41,298 bases of DNA, taken from NCBI GenBank assembly GCA_902826455.1, contig CADEEV010000042.1, forward strand, positions 1 through 41,298, in the 5' to 3' direction. The notes beneath the pieces were generated by a model. That model ran no database searches. It was not told where the DNA came from and saw only the letters and a list, made by a program, of their open reading frames with translations. This document shows positions 13,269 to 30,140 of the stretch, piece after piece. This stretch comes from an uncultured Acidobacteriota bacterium (GTDB lineage: Bacteria; Acidobacteriota; Vicinamibacteria; Fen-336). Position numbers and translations under genes: made by a program. Positions within the stretch are counted from its first letter, which is position 1; each line of letters starts with the position of its first letter.

Positions 13269-14876
<1,608 letters not shown>

Positions 14877-14895
14877 CCCGCGCCCTGGGAGCTCA

Positions 14896-15297
14896 ATGTC
14901 CACTCGCAAGATACGTGTCGTGATCGCGAAGCCCGGCCTCGACGGCCACGACCGCGGCGCCAAGATCGTCGCCCGAGCCTTGCGCGACGCCGGCATGGAG
15001 GTCATCTACACGGGACTGCGCCAGAGCCCCGAGCAGATCGTGGCGGCCGCCGAGCAGGAGGACGCCGACGTGATCGGCCTGTCGATCCTCTCCGGGGCCC
15101 ACCTGCCGATCTGCCGGCGCATCCTGGAGCTCCTGGGAGAGAAGAAGATCGAGGGCGTCCGGGTGTTCGTGGGAGGCATCATTCCGTCCCAGGACATCCC
15201 GGAACTGAAGGCCTTGGGAGTCGCGGAGGTATTCCTTCCGGGCGCCTCGACGGAAGACATCATCCGGATGGTCGAGGGATCCGCCGTCAGCCGCTAA
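14896..15297 (+). CDS. Cobalamin-binding small subunit of acyl-CoA mutase
   Basis: This 133-residue protein is a lone B12-binding Rossmann domain. It has the base-off/His-on motif D-x-H-x2-G (Asp16, His18 and Gly21 in GLDGHDRG), [10 protein letters not shown], and the GGIIPSQD loop. His18 is the predicted lower cobalt ligand. Its size matches small subunits such as IcmB. It pairs with the upstream catalytic subunit to make the active mutase. A GGGAG ribosome-binding site lies just upstream of the ATG. No MeaB-type GTPase chaperone gene is present in the window. Confidence 0.92.
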
Positions 15298-15301
15298 TTC
15301 A

Positions 15302-15330
15302 TTGACATACTTGAGGCATCGGTCTATCTT
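15302..15330 (+). promoter_or_regulatory. Strong sigma70-type promoter of the receiver-scaffold gene
   Basis: TTGACA (15302-15307, full consensus) and TATCTT (15325-15330) are separated by exactly 17 nt. The predicted start is near 15337, giving a leader of about 40 nt. That leader contains a GGGAGGG ribosome-binding site (15362-15368), 9 nt before the ATG. It is among the most consensus-like promoters in the window. Confidence 0.75.
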
Positions 15331-15377: not shown

Positions 15378-17096
15378 ATGGGCAAGAAGATCCTGTTGGC
15401 GGACGACAGCATCACGATCCAGAAGGTCATCGAACTGACCTTCTCCGACGAGGATTTCGACGTCGTGACCGTCGGCAACGGCCGCCTCGCCATCGAGCGC
15501 CTCGAAGAGGTGCGGCCGGACGTGGTGCTGTGCGACATCATCATGCCCGAGAAGGACGGCTACGAGGTCTGCGACTTCATCAAGAAGAACGCCGCCTTCT
15601 CCCACGTGCCGGTGCTGCTGTTGACGGGCGCCTTCGAGCCCTTCGACCAGGAGCGGGCGGCGCGGGTGGGATGCGACGGCTACCTCGCGAAGCCCTTCGA
15701 GCCCCAGGCGCTCATCGCGAAGGTGAAGGACCTGCTCCTGCAGTCCGCGTCGCGGCCTCGGGCGGCGGCGCCCGTGGCCGTCGCTCCGCCCGCGCCGGCG
15801 AGCCTCTCGGTCGACGACGAGTGGGCCCAGACCCTGCCGGGCACGGCGCCGACCTCGCTCACGCAGCCGGAGCCGGTCGTCAGCGCGCCGGAAGCGCCCG
15901 CGCCCTTCGTGCCGGAGGATGAGCCCGTCGTCGAGGAAGCCCCCGCGGGCACCTTCGACGCTCCCATGGATCTCAGCACGGACGCGGCGCCCCCTTACGC
16001 GCCGACCGCCGGGCTCGAGCAGGAGCTGTACTCCATGGACGAGCCCGTGGTGGCTGCGCCCGAGGAGTTCATGCCCCTCATGGCCGAAGAGGCGCAGGCC
16101 CTGCAGCCGCCGCCCTCTTCGGGCCCGATCGCCTTCGAGTCGGACGACGAGCCGGTGTTCGACTCGGAGCCCGTGGAGGACGATTTCGTCCCCGCGCCGG
16201 CTTTCGTGCCGGCATCCACACCGTCGTTCGTGAACGCTCCGGCCGAGCCGCCCGCGGCCGTGGCCCCTCCGCCTCCGGTGTTCGAGCCGCCGCCTCCGCC
16301 GCCGGTCTTCGAGCCGGCTCCGGCGCCGGACTTCGAAGCGGCGCCCGCACCCGTGTTCGAAGCCCCGCCGCCGCCACCGGTCTTCGCCCCTCCGCCGCCC
16401 GCCGTCGAGCCCGTGCCGCCCATGGCGGCCCCGGTGTTCGAGCCGCCGCCGTCCCCGCCCGTGCGGCCTCTCGAGCCAGCCTCGATGGTCGAAGAGGACG
16501 ACGGCGCGTCGACCGTCGTCTTCCGCTCCGGGGAAGCGCCACCCTGGTCGCAGCCGACCACGGAGCTGTCGTTCGAGATGCGGGCCCAGGCCATGGCGAA
16601 GCAGCAGGCCGAAGAGTCGCCCGCGCCCGTGTTCGAAGACGTGGCGGAGGACGAGCCCGAGCCCTTCGAGCCCCCGCCCCCGCCGCCCGTGTTCGAGCCC
16701 GTGGCGCCGCCGGCGCCGGCCTTCGAGCCGTTCGTGGCCCATGCCCCGGCCCACGAGAGCGTCTTCGAGGCCGCCGAGCCCGAGCCGGAGCCCGAGCCCG
16801 AACCGGTGGTCGCGGCCCCGGAGCCCGAAGCCGTCCCGGACGAGCAGCCCGAGGAGTCGTTCGCGGCCCTGGCGCCGCCGGCCGTCGCGCCGGTGGACGA
16901 GCCCGCCGCACCGGCTTCGGCCGCGGCAGAGGTCGCCGTGCCGGTGGACCAGGTGGCGCAGATCGCCCAGCGCGTCGTCGCGCAGATCTCGGAGAAGGTA
17001 GTCCGGGAGATCGCCTGGGAGATCATTCCCGACCTGGCCGAAGCCCTCATCAAGAAGGAAATCGAGCGCCTCAAGGCCGAGCTCGAGCGCACCTAG
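15378..17096 (+). CDS. Receiver domain with long Pro/Glu-rich linker and PopZ-like C-terminal helix
   Basis: This 572-residue protein has a complete CheY-like receiver at residues 3-122: acidic pair Asp9/Asp10, phospho-acceptor Asp53 (LCDIIMP), Thr83 and Lys105 (LAKPFEP). There is no DNA-binding or enzymatic output domain. About 400 residues of Pro/Glu/Ala/Asp-rich, presumably disordered sequence follow, carrying about a dozen VFEP/VFEA-type Phe motifs. The last 45 residues are helical, with VVREIAWEIIPDLAEALIKKEI. That end resembles the oligomerising tail of PopZ (DUF2497), and PopZ also has a Pro/Glu/Asp linker. Phosphorylation may control self-assembly or localisation, which is inference. 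No histidine kinase is nearby. Confidence 0.8.
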   Translation: MGKKILLADDSITIQKVIELTFSDEDFDVVTVGNGRLAIERLEEVRPDVVLCDIIMPEKDGYEVCDFIKKNAAFSHVPVLLLTGAFEPFDQERAARVGCDGYLAKPFEPQALIAKVKDLLLQSASRPRAAAPVAVAPPAPASLSVDDEWAQTLPGTAPTSLTQPEPVVSAPEAPAPFVPEDEPVVEEAPAGTFDAPMDLSTDAAPPYAPTAGLEQELYSMDEPVVAAPEEFMPLMAEEAQALQPPPSSGPIAFESDDEPVFDSEPVEDDFVPAPAFVPASTPSFVNAPAEPPAAVAPPPPVFEPPPPPPVFEPAPAPDFEAAPAPVFEAPPPPPVFAPPPPAVEPVPPMAAPVFEPPPSPPVRPLEPASMVEEDDGASTVVFRSGEAPPWSQPTTELSFEMRAQAMAKQQAEESPAPVFEDVAEDEPEPFEPPPPPPVFEPVAPPAPAFEPFVAHAPAHESVFEAAEPEPEPEPEPVVAAPEPEAVPDEQPEESFAALAPPAVAPVDEPAAPASAAAEVAVPVDQVAQIAQRVVAQISEKVVREIAWEIIPDLAEALIKKEIERLKAELERT

Positions 17097-17106
17097 GACG
17101 TCGCGC

Positions 17107-19734
17107 CTGACCGAACCGCTCTCCAAGGCCTACGAGCCGAAAGACGTCGAGGCGCGCTGGTACTCCTACTGGGAGGACGGCGGCTTCTTCCGCGCCGATC
17201 CGTCGAGCGGGAAGCCGAGCTTCGCGATCGTCATCCCGCCTCCCAACGTTACGGGCTCGCTCCACATCGGCCACGCCTTCACCAACACCCTCCAGGACGT
17301 GATCGTGCGCTGGAAGCGCATGCTCGGCTTCGACGTGCTCTGGCTCCCGGGCCTCGACCACGCCGGCATCGCGACGCAGATGGTCGTGCAGAAGCAGCTC
17401 GCGGCCCAGGGCCTGACGAAAGAGTCGCTCGGCCGCGAGGAGTTCGAGCGCCGCGTCTGGGAGTGGAAGGAAAAGAGCGGCGGCATCATCCTGAAGCAGC
17501 TGCGCCTGATGGGCTTCTCCTGCGACTGGTCGCGGGAGCGCTTCACGATGGACGAGGGGCTCTCGCGCGCCGTGCGCGAGGTGTTCGTCTCGCTCTGGGA
17601 GCAGGGCCTCGTCTACCGCGGCAACTACATCGTGAACTGGTGCTCCGACTGCGGCACGGCGCTCTCCGACCTCGAGGTGGTGAGCGAGCCCGAGGCCGGG
17701 AGCCTGTGGCACATCCGCTATCCCGCGGAGGACGGCGGGGAAGGCATCGTGGTCGCGACCACGCGCCCCGAGACCATGCTCGGCGACACGGCCGTCGCGG
17801 TACACCCGGAGGACGAGCGCTTCCAGCACCTGATCGGCCGCAACGTGATCCTGCCGATCCTCCGCCGGCCGATCCCTGTGGTGGGGGATACGTTCGTCGA
17901 CCGCGAGTTCGGCACCGGCGCCGTGAAGGTGACGCCTGCCCACGACCCCAACGACTTCCAGGCGGGACAACGCCTGGGCTTGCCGTCCATCACCATCATG
18001 GACGAGCACTCGGTGATGAACGAGAACGCGGGTCCCTTCGCGGGCCAGGACCGCTTCGAGGCGCGCAAAGGCGTCGTGGCGCAGCTCCAGGCCGAGGGCC
18101 TGCTGCTGAAGACGACGCCGCACATGGTGCCCCTCGGACGCTGCCAGCGCTCCAGGACGATCGTCGAGCCGCGCCTCTCGCAGCAGTGGTTCGTGAAGAC
18201 GCAGCCCCTCGCGGAGCCGGCCATCGCCGCCGTGGAAGACGGCCGCATCCGCTTCGTTCCCGAGAACTGGAGCAAGACCTACTTCGAGTGGATGCGCAAC
18301 ATCCGCGACTGGTGCGTGTCGCGCCAGCTCTGGTGGGGGCACCGCATCCCGGCCTGGACGTGCGGCGACTGCAACGAGCTGATCGTGGCTCGCGAGCAGC
18401 CGGTCGCCTGTCCGAAGTGCGGCAGGAAGACGCTGACCCAGGAGACCGACGTCCTCGACACGTGGTTTTCCTCGGGCCTGTTCCCGTTCTCGACGCTGGG
18501 CTGGCCGGACTCGAGCGCCGACTTCAAGCGCTACTACCCGAACGACGTCCTGATGACCGGCTTCGACATCATCTTCTTCTGGGTGGCGCGCATGGTCATG
18601 CTCGGCATGCGCTTCGGAGGCGACGTGCCGTTCCGGACCGTGTTCATCAACGGCCTCGTCCGCGACGAGCACGGCGAGAAGATGTCGAAGGTGAAGGGCA
18701 ACTCCGTCGATCCGCTCGACGTGATCGAGAAGCACGGCTGCGACGCCCTGCGCTTCACCCTCGCGGCCCTCGCGAACCCCGGCAACGACCCGTCCCTCGC
18801 CGAGGCGCGGCTCGTCGGCTACAAGGCCTTCGTCAACAAGCTCTGGAACGCCTCGCGCTTCGTGCTCATGAACCTCGAGGGCGAGGTTGCACCGTCCTTC
18901 GATCGCGCGGCGCTGCCCCTGCCCGGCCGCTGGATCCTCGACGCGCTCGACGCCACGGCGCGAGAAGTGAACGCGGCCCTGGCGGAGTACCGCTTCGACC
19001 AGGCCGCCAACGCGCTCTACCACTTCGTGTGGGACGAGTTCTGCGACTGGTACCTCGAGATCGCGAAGCCGTACCTCGCGGATCCGGCCCAGGCTCCCGC
19101 CACCCGGGCCGTGCTGCTGCGGGTGCTGGACGACTCGCTGCGCCTGCTGCATCCGTTCATGCCTTTCGTGACCGAAGAGATCTGGCAGAAGCTGCCCCAC
19201 GACGGACCGACCCTCATGAAGGCCGCCTTCCCGCTCGGAGGCGACGCCGCGTCGGCGTCGGCGGTGTCGGACATGAAGCCGCTCATGGACCTGGTGACCG
19301 CCGTCCGCACGATCCGCGCGGAGAAGGGCGTCGACCCGAAGAAGCGCATCGCGGTGACGGTCGTCGCCCCCACGAACCGGCCGCTCCTCGAGGCCCAGGC
19401 CCCCTGGCTGCGGTCGCTGGGTCGCATCGAGCAGCTCGAGATCCTGGACGCAGCGCCGGCCGACGTGCCGCAGACCATCAAGCAGCAGGTGGGCGCGTGG
19501 CAGGTGCGGCTGCCGATGGCAGGCTTGTTCGATCTGGAGGCGGAGCGCGGGCGCCTCGCCAAGGAGCGGCAGAAGCTCGAAGCCGAGCGCGCCGGCATCG
19601 CGAAGAAGTTCGAGAACCCGCAGTTCGTGGCGCGCGCCAAGCCCGAGGTGGTGGCCGAGGGCCGTGGGCGCATCGCGGAGATCGACGGGCTCCTCGAGCG
19701 CAACGCCGCGACCCTGCGCGAGCTGGGTGCGTGA
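17107..19734 (+). CDS. valS: Valine-tRNA ligase, probable CTG start
   Basis: This 875-residue class Ia synthetase attaches valine to tRNA(Val). It has PPPNVTGSLHIGHAF (HIGH motif), an editing domain, the KMSKVKGNSVDP motif, an anticodon-binding domain and the C-terminal coiled-coil arm typical of ValS. The first ATG, GTG or TTG in frame after the upstream stop at 16999 is GTG 17299. That codon lies downstream of the HIGH motif and cannot be the start. The only NTG codon available is CTG at 17107, with AGGA at 17095-17098 spaced 8 nt away. The protein then begins LTEPLSKAYEPKDVEARWY, as ValS proteins do. The nadC start overlaps its stop (GTGA). Confidence 0.95.
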   Translation: MTEPLSKAYEPKDVEARWYSYWEDGGFFRADPSSGKPSFAIVIPPPNVTGSLHIGHAFTNTLQDVIVRWKRMLGFDVLWLPGLDHAGIATQMVVQKQLAAQGLTKESLGREEFERRVWEWKEKSGGIILKQLRLMGFSCDWSRERFTMDEGLSRAVREVFVSLWEQGLVYRGNYIVNWCSDCGTALSDLEVVSEPEAGSLWHIRYPAEDGGEGIVVATTRPETMLGDTAVAVHPEDERFQHLIGRNVILPILRRPIPVVGDTFVDREFGTGAVKVTPAHDPNDFQAGQRLGLPSITIMDEHSVMNENAGPFAGQDRFEARKGVVAQLQAEGLLLKTTPHMVPLGRCQRSRTIVEPRLSQQWFVKTQPLAEPAIAAVEDGRIRFVPENWSKTYFEWMRNIRDWCVSRQLWWGHRIPAWTCGDCNELIVAREQPVACPKCGRKTLTQETDVLDTWFSSGLFPFSTLGWPDSSADFKRYYPNDVLMTGFDIIFFWVARMVMLGMRFGGDVPFRTVFINGLVRDEHGEKMSKVKGNSVDPLDVIEKHGCDALRFTLAALANPGNDPSLAEARLVGYKAFVNKLWNASRFVLMNLEGEVAPSFDRAALPLPGRWILDALDATAREVNAALAEYRFDQAANALYHFVWDEFCDWYLEIAKPYLADPAQAPATRAVLLRVLDDSLRLLHPFMPFVTEEIWQKLPHDGPTLMKAAFPLGGDAASASAVSDMKPLMDLVTAVRTIRAEKGVDPKKRIAVTVVAPTNRPLLEAQAPWLRSLGRIEQLEILDAAPADVPQTIKQQVGAWQVRLPMAGLFDLEAERGRLAKERQKLEAERAGIAKKFENPQFVARAKPEVVAEGRGRIAEIDGLLERNAATLRELGA

Positions 19735-26955: not shown

Positions 26956-28907
26956 CGCGTGCCCTGGCGCGGTGCGTCCTGCTGGGCGCGGCGCTGCCGG
27001 TCCTGGCGGCGTCCAACTCGGAGAAGGTGATCGACGTCCGCGCGACGCGGCCCGTCGCCGGCAGCAGCTTCGAGGGCATGTGGGACGCGTATCGCAAGGC
27101 CGACATCGCCGGCGACACGGACACCTCCGACAAGCTCTTCCGCGAGATCCGGCGCCTGCGCACGGAGCGCAACGTCCAGAGCCTCGAGGAGATCTCCCTG
27201 GCCCTGGTGGCGCGCGGGCAGGAGCGCCTGTCCGACGCGAACCGGTCCGGGGCCGAGGAAGACTTCCTCAAGGCCGTCGGTCTCGACCCGCACCTGCCGG
27301 ACGCCTACCTCGCCCTCGCCAGGGCCGAGGTCCGGAAGGGGCCCCTCGGGATCCTGGCCGCGGTCAAGGACACCTTCGCCGCGATGACGGCGCGTGTCGA
27401 CACCGCTCGCGGCCGCTACTTCGCCCTGCTCCTCGTGATCCCGGTCGGCCTGCTGGCGCTGCTCGCGACGATCTCGATCCTGGCCTTCTCCCTGTTGCTG
27501 CGCAACGGAACGCTCCTGCTCCACGACTTGCAGGAGAGGTTCGGCGACGGGCGCGAGGCCCTGGCCGTCGGCGTCTTCGCGATCCTGGTGTTCCTGCCCA
27601 CGATCACCTTCCAGGGCTTCGCGTGGCTGCCGCTCTGGTGGCTCGCGCTGCTGTTCGTCTACCTGAGCCGTGTCGAGCAGGCGGTGGCCGGTCTCGCCCT
27701 GCTCTCGGGGCTCCTCGTCGGGCCGGCAGTCGACGTCCTGACGTCGCGGGTCCTGGCCGAGCGGAACCCCTTGTTCCGGGCCACCCTCCAGACGATCGAG
27801 GGCGGCCCCGACCTGCGCGCCCGCGACGCGATCGAGCGCGGGCTCGCGAGCCTGCCCGAGGACCGCGACCTGTCCTATCTCCTCGCGATCCAGTACAAGA
27901 AGGACGGGCTCTACGACGAGTCCGCTCAGATCTACCGGGAGATCCTGCGCACCAGCCCCGAGGACCGCATCGCCCTCAACAACCTCGCGAACATCGAGTT
28001 CGCCCGGGGCGAGTTCCCGGCGGCGATCGCGCGCTACAAGCAGGGGGCCGAGGCGAGCCCGACGCCGGAGATCAACGCGACGTTCTACTACAATCTCTCC
28101 CTGGCCCACCTCCAGCGCTTCGAGTACCAGCCGGCCCAGGAGGCGCGCTCCCAGGCCGAGCGCATCTCCATGAGCGTGGTGCGGGCCTACGACAACCTCT
28201 GGAAGTACGACAAGAGCGACTACGCCGTCGTGGACCTCTCGCTGTCCGAGGAGCAGGCCTGGGCGAAGTTCGGCGGGACCGCCGAGGGCGTCGCCGCCCA
28301 GAACGTCGTCGGTAAGGCCGTCACGCCCTTCGACGCGTCGAAGCTGCTGCCGAGCGCCCTCAATCGCTTCGCGGGCTTCCTGCTCGTCGCACTCGTGGTG
28401 GGCTTCGTGCTGTCGCGATGGCGGGGCAAGCGGATGTTCACGCTGCGCTGCCAGAAGTGCGGCACGCCGTTCTGCAAGCACTGCCACCTCGGCGCCGCGG
28501 CCGCGGGCCTGTGCACGCAGTGCTACCACCTGTTCGTGGTGCGCGACGGCGTCTCTGGACCGGCGCGCAACCAGAAGCTCCTCGAGGTCCAGAAGGAGGA
28601 CGAGCGGCGCGAGCGCATCTTCCGCGCGCTCTCCCTCCTCTCTCCGGGAGCAGGACACCTGTACGCCCAGAAGACCCTCCTGGGCGCGCTCTTTGCCATG
28701 GTGTGGTACGGGTTGCTGGCGCTGGTCCTCCTCGCCGGCCGCGTGCTGCCGGTGACGGAGGCGCCGTCGGTCCTCGTCGGCTCCTGGGGATCGTGGATCG
28801 CCGGAGCGCTCCTCCTCGCGACCTACGTCCTCGCCAATCGCGCCCGGCCCGACTTCGAGTTCGCCATGCCCGCGCCCCGCAGCACCGGCAAGCGGGGAAG
28901 GGTCTAG
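26952..28907 (+). CDS. TPR-repeat membrane protein with a zinc-ribbon-like module
   Basis: This 651-residue protein starts at GTG (GTGA overlap with DUF1844). In order it has a signal-like N-terminus ending VLAASNS, then a helical/TPR-like segment (about residues 40-125). Two to three membrane helices follow (about 150-260), then TPR repeats (SYLLAIQYKKDGLYDES, ALNNLANIEFARGE, FYYNLSLAHLQR; about 300-400) and another membrane helix. Next is a Cys cluster C-x2-C-x5-C-x2-C...C-x2-C (CQKCGTPFCKHCH, CTQC), and finally two helices near SPGAGHLYAQKT. The Cys cluster should bind zinc. I recognise no named family; it looks like a membrane assembly or scaffold factor. Confidence 0.8.
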   Translation: MTRALARCVLLGAALPVLAASNSEKVIDVRATRPVAGSSFEGMWDAYRKADIAGDTDTSDKLFREIRRLRTERNVQSLEEISLALVARGQERLSDANRSGAEEDFLKAVGLDPHLPDAYLALARAEVRKGPLGILAAVKDTFAAMTARVDTARGRYFALLLVIPVGLLALLATISILAFSLLLRNGTLLLHDLQERFGDGREALAVGVFAILVFLPTITFQGFAWLPLWWLALLFVYLSRVEQAVAGLALLSGLLVGPAVDVLTSRVLAERNPLFRATLQTIEGGPDLRARDAIERGLASLPEDRDLSYLLAIQYKKDGLYDESAQIYREILRTSPEDRIALNNLANIEFARGEFPAAIARYKQGAEASPTPEINATFYYNLSLAHLQRFEYQPAQEARSQAERISMSVVRAYDNLWKYDKSDYAVVDLSLSEEQAWAKFGGTAEGVAAQNVVGKAVTPFDASKLLPSALNRFAGFLLVALVVGFVLSRWRGKRMFTLRCQKCGTPFCKHCHLGAAAAGLCTQCYHLFVVRDGVSGPARNQKLLEVQKEDERRERIFRALSLLSPGAGHLYAQKTLLGALFAMVWYGLLALVLLAGRVLPVTEAPSVLVGSWGSWIAGALLLATYVLANRARPDFEFAMPAPRSTGKRGRV

Positions 28908-28910
28908 CCC

Positions 28911-30140
28911 ATGGCTCTCGAAGGAACCATCAAGGACTTCGGTCTTCCCGACATCTTCCAGCTGATCGGCCTCCAGCGGAAGACGGGGCTCCTCACCCTC
29001 AAGAACGAGAAGGAGAACGTCACCGTCACCTTCGAGAACGGCATGGTGGTGATGGCCGATTCGTCGCAGAAGCGCCTCGAGGACCGCCTGGGCAGCGTGC
29101 TCGTGAAGCAGGGGAAGCTAACCCGCGAGCGGCTCGACGAGGCCCTCGCGACCCAGAAGGCGACGCTGCAGCGGATGGGCCACATCCTGACCACCGGCAA
29201 CTTCATCACCGAGCAGGACCTGAAGGACGCCTTGCAGGTGCAGGTGTCGCAGATCGTCTTCAAGGTCTTCCGCTGGCGCGACGGCGAATACCACTTCGCT
29301 CCCACCGACACGGTCGACTACGACCGCGAGAACTTCAATCCCATGAGCGCGGACTTCATCCTCATGGAAGGCATCCGGATGGTGGACGAGTGGCCCATCA
29401 TCGAGAAGAAGATCCCGTCGATGGACATCGTCCTGCGCCCGGTCGTGGACCCGTCCATGATCGAAGTAGGCGACGGCGACGGGGGCGGCGGCATCGACGA
29501 GGTCCTGAACAAGCGCGGCGCCGCGAGCTCCCTCAGCAAGATCCGCCTGAGCGGCGAAGAAGAGCGCATCTACCGTAAGGTCGACGGCACGCGCACGGTG
29601 CAGGCAATCATCGACTCCTCGGGCATGGGGGAGTTCGAGGTCTGCCGGGTGCTCTTCGACCTGCTGAACCGGAACATCATCTCGACCGTCGGCCGGGGCG
29701 ACGCCCCCGAGACCTTCGTCGGTGTGCGCAGCGAGGGGCCGCCCTCGAAGGTGCCGGGGCTCGTCGCGATGGGCGTGGCGCTGGCCATGTCCCTCGCGGC
29801 CATCGGGGCCCGTTGGGGAACGCCGTTCGCCGTCGTGGGCCTGAAGCCTCTGCTCTCGGGCTCCTACGGCCTGATGCTCGAGGCGGTGAGCGAGGCCCGT
29901 CTGCAGCGGCTGGACAAGGCCGTGCAAGCCTATCGCCTCGCCACGGGGGCGCTGCCGCGCACCCTCGAAGACCTCGTGAAGGCCGGCCTGGTGGATCGCA
30001 GCTATCTCAAGGACCCCTGGACCCGCCCGTATCACTACGCGCAGACCGATGGCGGGTACCTGCTGAGCGGTCTCGACGACCGCGGGCGCAAGGTCCCGGC
30101 GACGACTCTCGAGCGCACCCTCCCGGCGAACCGGCCCTAG
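28911..30140 (+). CDS. DUF4388 (PATAN) protein with transmembrane helix and GspG-like C-terminal domain
   Basis: This 409-residue protein begins with a PATAN/DUF4388 domain (MALEGTIKDFGLPDIFQLI, then KTGLLTLKNE...VTFENGMVVMA). A helical part (LTRERLDEALATQ) and VFKVFRWRDGEYHF follow. A winged-helix-like segment (EERIYRKVDGTRTVQAII) lies near residues 215-265. One membrane helix sits at about 285-305. The C-terminal 80 residues (ATGALPRTLEDLVKAG, LKDPWTRPYHY, GYLLSGLDDRGR) look like the globular end of type II secretion pseudopilin GspG. PATAN domains are thought to interact with response regulators. The cytoplasmic-sensor to periplasmic-pseudopilin arrangement is unusual. It lies 3 nt downstream of the TPR gene. 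Confidence 0.8.
   Translation: MALEGTIKDFGLPDIFQLIGLQRKTGLLTLKNEKENVTVTFENGMVVMADSSQKRLEDRLGSVLVKQGKLTRERLDEALATQKATLQRMGHILTTGNFITEQDLKDALQVQVSQIVFKVFRWRDGEYHFAPTDTVDYDRENFNPMSADFILMEGIRMVDEWPIIEKKIPSMDIVLRPVVDPSMIEVGDGDGGGGIDEVLNKRGAASSLSKIRLSGEEERIYRKVDGTRTVQAIIDSSGMGEFEVCRVLFDLLNRNIISTVGRGDAPETFVGVRSEGPPSKVPGLVAMGVALAMSLAAIGARWGTPFAVVGLKPLLSGSYGLMLEAVSEARLQRLDKAVQAYRLATGALPRTLEDLVKAGLVDRSYLKDPWTRPYHYAQTDGGYLLSGLDDRGRKVPATTLERTLPANRP

Follow-up and report, generated by a model that had tools for sequence, protein, structure and literature searches.

RomR, a response regulator of polarity in Myxococcus, sits at the center of the most thoroughly studied polarity switch in bacteria, where it marks a cell pole and guides a small GTPase in motility. 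PopZ, described from Alphaproteobacteria, is the model condensate scaffold of bacteria and binds ParA/ParB and kinases; to our knowledge, no binding to Mgl proteins has been described for it.

By definition, RomR has a receiver (REC) domain, a Pro-rich linker that is not conserved, and a helical C-terminus rich in Glu (RomR-C) in which one Trp and one Pro are invariant; it has been reported from Myxococcales, Geobacter/Pelobacter, Acidobacteria, Deferribacterales and Aquificales (PMC3441718). The published residues of Myxococcus xanthus RomR include E390, K391, W394, E402 and H420; RomR-C of this species binds MglC with nanomolar affinity in a W394-dependent manner, and residues 371-420 of RomR form a homotrimer in solution (PMC12719032). 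The C-terminal helices of PopZ have been modelled as parallel trimers (PMC9926476). In Caulobacter and Agrobacterium, valS lies a few hundred bases downstream of popZ and is the sole shared neighbor (PMC5686542), and the popZ gene of Magnetospirillum adjoins a valyl-tRNA synthetase gene (PMC6414705).

Here we describe a gene in the window, a 41,298-nucleotide stretch of DNA from an uncultured Acidobacteriota bacterium. An earlier note read its product as a receiver joined to a PopZ-like oligomerization tail and did not name RomR, which we found to be its precise known counterpart. The gene is thus an unexceptional representative of an established family, and RomR has already been reported from its phylum. 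That phylum was assigned through identity of contigs from sampled relatives with named Acidobacteriota records; the class is probably Vicinamibacteria, as judged by the closest named neighbors (L081 and L084). By analogy with M. xanthus, this RomR orthologue very probably forms a polar cluster, docks an MglC-type Roadblock protein through its tail and is switched at D53.

Results

The window gene is a romR orthologue

When Myxococcus RomR was searched against the window genome, the window gene came first (E = 2.8e-34; next match, 2.7e-17). In the opposite direction, RomR was the first match of the window protein in a Myxococcus genome (E = 1e-35; next match, 7e-18), with 51% identity over residues 1-141. 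These reciprocal best hits with wide margins, together with the common valS neighbor, indicate orthology to Myxococcus RomR. In two genomes, MglA has 100% identity to the protein of the solved M. xanthus structure, and both carry a RomR of 420 residues. We observed D53, E390, K391, W394, P398 and E402 in this protein, matching the numbering reported for M. xanthus.

The open reading frame starts with ATG (Table 1), and the limits given in the earlier note were correct. An N-terminal receiver with the phosphorylatable Asp53 was found, along with T83 and K105, as had been claimed for an intact receiver; Pfam PF00072 (Response_reg) matched residues 5-117 (E = 7e-24). An AlphaFold2 model, built with a 40-sequence alignment as input, had pLDDT above 90 in the receiver, mostly below 50 in the linker, and 77-95 in a single helix at residues 523-571. 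A fold search with the whole model returned receivers only and is therefore uninformative on the tail.

The C-terminal helical region described in the earlier note was also present, as the tail IIPDLAEALIKKEIERL within a 49-residue modelled helix. It is Glu-rich, and its W547, P551 and E555 are spaced as W394, P398 and E402 of Myxococcus RomR, so the docking residues are conserved; identity to the Myxococcus RomR tail was only 34% over 50 residues. Among 98 RomR-C tails gathered by the AWE..P pattern, AWE and Pro were invariant and Glu was present in 97%. Carriers of the tail family in a scan of named genomes belonged to Acidobacteriota, Desulfuromonadales and Myxococcales. We found no match to the window tail among solved structures, and no RomR-C in a plasmid collection.

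Table 1. Features of the romR locus, with positions counted along the window
Feature	Position	Strand	Basis
Methylmalonyl-CoA mutase large subunit and B12-binding subunit genes	13269..15297	+	Conserved upstream neighbors in the window's class
Sigma-70-like promoter, TTGACA-17-TATCTT	15302..15330	+	Match to consensus alone (10/12 positions), with none in 50 shuffles
romR orthologue, 572 aa	15378..17096	+	Reciprocal best hit with Myxococcus RomR; domain order
Receiver domain, residues 1-125, D53/T83/K105	15378..15752	+	Pfam PF00072, E 7e-24; AlphaFold2 pLDDT >90
Disordered Pro/Ala/Glu linker, residues 126-520, 23 Phe, 13 F[ED][PASD]	15753..16937	+	AlphaFold2 pLDDT, composition
Degenerate 27-bp tandem repeat, encoding part of the PVFEPP motifs	16269..16459	+	7.3 copies
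RomR-C tail, residues 523-572, single amphipathic helix	16944..17093	+	AlphaFold2 helix 523-571; found in 172/297 Acidobacteriota genomes
AWEIIPDLAE element, residues 546-555	17013..17042	+	W547/P551/E555 = W394/P398/E402 of Myxococcus RomR
valS, valyl-tRNA synthetase	17107..19734	+	NCBIfam NF004349/TIGR00422; conserved downstream neighbor; start codon uncertain

The promoter and valS flank the gene

The earlier note had proposed a strong consensus promoter. We observed a perfect −35 element, whereas the −10 element agreed at 4/6 positions, and none of 50 shuffles produced such a match. From the consensus match, the promoter may be strong and expression may be abundant.

Downstream, valS directly followed romR in 51/77 named loci with enough flank, drawn from Acidobacteriota, Desulfuromonadales (including Geobacter) and Myxococcales. 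Myxococcus has romR and valS in the same order, 73-74 bp apart. In the window, no in-frame ATG, GTG or TTG occurs between 17097 and 17299, and the valS family match begins near 17119. The start is possibly a CTG at 17107 or another codon, or the sequence may contain an error. A valyl-tRNA synthetase of the alt_ValS type (NCBIfam NF000540), in place of the usual bacterial type, lies beside romR at the same position in two other loci (L077:6151-8922 and L184:3725-6388), an apparent replacement in place. Elsewhere in the window, a DUF4388 protein is encoded at 28911-30140 and is overlapped in another frame by an open reading frame at 28418-29578 that has no Pfam match.

Phe motifs in the linker are lineage-specific

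The earlier note had described a Pro/Glu/Ala/Asp linker of about 400 residues with about a dozen regularly placed Phe motifs, and our measurements bore out both descriptions. The linker, disordered and Pro-rich as the unconserved RomR linker is, spans 395 residues (P 26%, A 19%, E 14%, V 10%, F 6%, D 5%), with 18.5% acidic (E+D) versus less than 2% basic (K+R) residues. F[ED][PASD] occurred 13 times compared to 2.4 expected (5,000 composition-keeping shuffles, largest 8), and VFE[PA] occurred 6 times compared to 0.14 expected, above all 5,000 shuffles. The 23 Phe were evenly spaced, with equal evenness in 1.5% of random placements. Part of this regularity stems from the 27-bp tandem repeat in the DNA (Table 1).

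Myxococcus RomR linkers contain 1-2 Phe and no F[ED]. We therefore rejected the idea that such motifs characterize RomR in general. Because Myxococcus RomR works with so few linker Phe, the motifs are an elaboration and not a general RomR requirement. The Phe 'stickers' of the earlier note are thus present and enriched in the window linker, but are lineage-specific. In this lineage they may adjust cohesion or serve to bind a partner. A phosphorylation-controlled condensate, as hypothesized in the earlier note, is conceivable for the window RomR. Very long RomR proteins were seen in two other genomes (L066 in G063, about 1033 residues; L054 in G021, about 815 residues), with linkers of 640-850 residues. 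In the L066 protein we counted 25 Phe and 14 F[ED].

The Mgl module is present in the window genome and co-occurs with RomR

Both MglA and MglB are encoded in the window genome, with mglB and mglA side by side on contig C14. MglA aligned with M. xanthus MglA over 195/195 residues (E = 8e-101), and MglB matched at E = 8e-59; both are close to the Myxococcus proteins. For two Roadblock proteins the best solved match was M. xanthus MglC (E = 1.9e-9 and 5e-7), making them MglC candidates. A Roadblock protein on contig C66 was rejected as MglC; its best match was a different Roadblock protein.

Across 297 Acidobacteriota genomes, RomR-C and MglA occurred together in 156, RomR alone in 16, MglA alone in 49 and neither in 76 (P = 7e-22, Fisher test, uncorrected for kinship), with absence of MglA defined as no match at E 1e-50 or better. 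Since 16/172 genomes with a RomR tail had no MglA at this threshold, RomR does not necessarily depend on MglA in every case.

Relatives without detected MglA have lost the Trp and Pro of the tail

Fifteen of the 16 RomR-only genomes belong to the window's own class. In the first six MglA-less loci, all six had the mcm-romR-valS order of the window and kept the receiver and tail helix, but the Trp and Pro were gone, with AWEVVPDLAE replaced by sequences such as TVSEIVSATAE. The W...P pair was also lost in 13 further complete orthologues, all from genomes of the class that had no detected MglA (19/19 in total). In genomes with a weak tail and MglA, the Pro was kept in 14/14, and Trp and Pro were both kept in 11/14. 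Loss of W/P was associated with absence of MglA (P = 4e-7, Fisher test, uncorrected for the clustering of losses in one class), and this clustering means that one or few events are possible. The window species and a member of its family (G066) keep both MglA and AWE..P.

Three tails kept the Pro and lost the Trp although MglA is present (L193 in G105, L194 in G283 and L198 in G060). In one MglA-less class-mate (L216 in G167, minus strand), the tail of a RomR-like receiver protein has expanded to about eleven helical units of 16 residues each (TVPGVVAETSERLIRD type) at residues ~500-702 of the open reading frame, and the repeats run past the end of the stretch.

Retention of the receiver and tail helix in the MglA-less orthologues indicates that RomR has a use without MglA. 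On the simplest reading of these sequences, AWE..P would be the Mgl-docking face, and the scaffold would be useful without it.

RomR-C and the PopZ tail may share an origin

A view that would supplement the RomR assignment is that RomR-C and the DUF2497 tail of PopZ descend from one pole-organizing gene upstream of valS. We put the chances of this at about even. Canonical RomR-C aligned with PopZ at P = 2e-4 to 5e-4 (hhalign, probability 32-47%); the alignment of the 98 RomR-C tails to four DUF2497 tails was ungapped over 36 columns (P = 2e-4, probability 46%). Plain column shuffles never reached the canonical score, whereas 26/300 shuffles that kept the hydrophobic pattern did. The canonical match alone is therefore not decisive, and this lack of significance counts against common ancestry.

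The orphan tails, those of the MglA-less orthologues, gave a clearer result (hhalign probability 94.7%, P = 6e-8, 43/46 columns). Their score was reached by 0/200 column shuffles and 0/200 shuffles keeping the hydrophobic pattern. None of 775 segments from 43 unrelated families scored above 15.5 against PopZ, compared to 21 for RomR-C and 37 for the orphans. The orphan tails also matched canonical RomR-C (98.4% profile match) and lie in the same mcm-romR-valS locus. The earlier note's proposal of a profile similarity between tail and DUF2497 thus found no direct match; a profile alignment was weak for the window's own tail type and clear for the MglA-less orthologues.

Gene order and oligomeric state point the same way. 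The position of romR directly upstream of valS (51/77 named loci) parallels that of popZ, which lies upstream of valS in Sinorhizobium as well. Trimeric tails are described on both sides, modelled for PopZ (PMC9926476) and in solution for RomR 371-420 (PMC12719032).

Several observations weigh against common ancestry. Pfam DUF2497 appeared in only 6/16 orphan tails, with a best E of 0.13, below the cut-off. The PopZ profile comprised four sequences, one of them checked by its Pfam match alone (E = 1e-19); a search for further PopZ sequences yielded six plasmid records only, and none in viral contigs. We found no receiver-less form that would link PopZ and RomR as an intermediate. Apparent cases of a receiver-less RomR were rejected, being cut by contig or locus ends or looking frame-broken. 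The comparison was made after the resemblance had been noticed, and amphipathic helices converge easily. A PF10691 match at E = 0.7 was not counted because its query row was a made-up consensus.

Under common ancestry, RomR and PopZ would be diverged copies of an ancient gene fixed upstream of valS, with a trimerizing C-terminal helix behind a disordered acidic/Pro linker as the shared core. An exchange at the N-terminus would have left a receiver in RomR and the client-binding helix H1 in PopZ. RomR would have gained or kept the AWE..P face for the Mgl GTPase module, and this face would decay where MglA is lost, the scaffold persisting. On this view, the window protein would be a PopZ-like scaffold under receiver control. 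In the accessible parts of the literature naming both proteins, no relationship between RomR and PopZ is reported. As far as that literature shows, the romR/popZ-valS parallel with its profile link is new, as is the W/P decay in MglA-less relatives.

Other readings of the window protein

The main job of RomR in the window lineage could be independent of MglA, with RomR acting as a pole hub for other partners. The 19 complete MglA-less orthologues that keep the receiver and tail helix, all without W...P, are consistent with this. In addition, Bdellovibrio RomR is described as an essential hub at the pole, and one assay detected no direct contact between it and MglA (PMC11025332). We nonetheless consider such a role unlikely, as the window species and G066 keep MglA and AWE..P, and MglB and MglC-like proteins are present.

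Strict membership in PopZ, the reading of the earlier note in which a receiver is joined to DUF2497 in a PopZ-type condensate set by phosphorylation, is highly improbable: similar linker composition with few basic residues, a C-terminal helix of the form P.LxE.L...EIER and a downstream valS favor it, but hmmscan found no PF10691 in the window protein at E up to 1, the receiver sits where PopZ has its helix H1, RomR orthology explains more, and the lack of Phe motifs in studied RomR also counts against it. We rejected direct membership. The architecture that the note had drawn (phospho-receiver, disordered acidic/Pro linker, oligomerizing C-terminal helix) stands as a description.

Discussion

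With the window gene assigned to romR, a working model can be drawn from M. xanthus. The C-terminal helix would associate, probably as a trimer, and this trimer together with the long disordered acidic/Pro linker would form a cluster at the cell pole. One face of the helix, AWEIIPDLAE (W547/P551/E555), is predicted to dock an MglC-type Roadblock protein. The receiver would take a kinase signal, with D53 phosphorylation setting the switching. Through control of the GTPase, the cluster would position MglA-GTP and hence the motility pole.

The MglA-less RomR proteins form a natural experiment that parts the scaffold from the GTPase-docking face, and they point to W/P as that face. If the common origin with PopZ is true, two fields would be joined, and PopZ would have relatives in Acidobacteriota, Desulfobacterota and Myxococcota. 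RomR clusters would then be predicted to be condensates on the same trimer core.

Among described systems, FrzS-type receiver proteins resemble the window protein in having a receiver, a helical part, polar placement and no DNA-binding output, but they differ in a long coiled coil and the lack of RomR-C.

PopZ (PF10691, Alphaproteobacteria) and RomR both organize cell poles and have a trimeric tail in published work. Like PopZ, the window protein has a Pro/Glu/Asp-rich, acidic disordered linker, a helix ending in P.LxE.L...EIER[VI] and valS downstream (17107). Unlike the window protein, PopZ begins with the client-binding helix H1 and has no receiver, and its tail Trp lies at P-6 compared to P-4 in RomR.

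Bdellovibrio bacteriovorus RomR (Bd2761) is likewise a RomR orthologue and a polar hub, whereas its receiver is shortened in the expressed protein and MglB is absent (PMC6428892).

The closest counterpart is M. xanthus RomR (MXAN_4461). The two differ in length (572 versus 420 residues), in the mcm genes upstream of the window gene, and in the linker, which is acidic and Phe-rich in the window and Gly/Pro-rich with few acidic residues in Myxococcus. They share a REC domain with D53, a disordered Pro-rich linker, the W/P/E spacing of RomR-C, a downstream valS, and MglA, MglB and MglC or MglC-like proteins in the genome.
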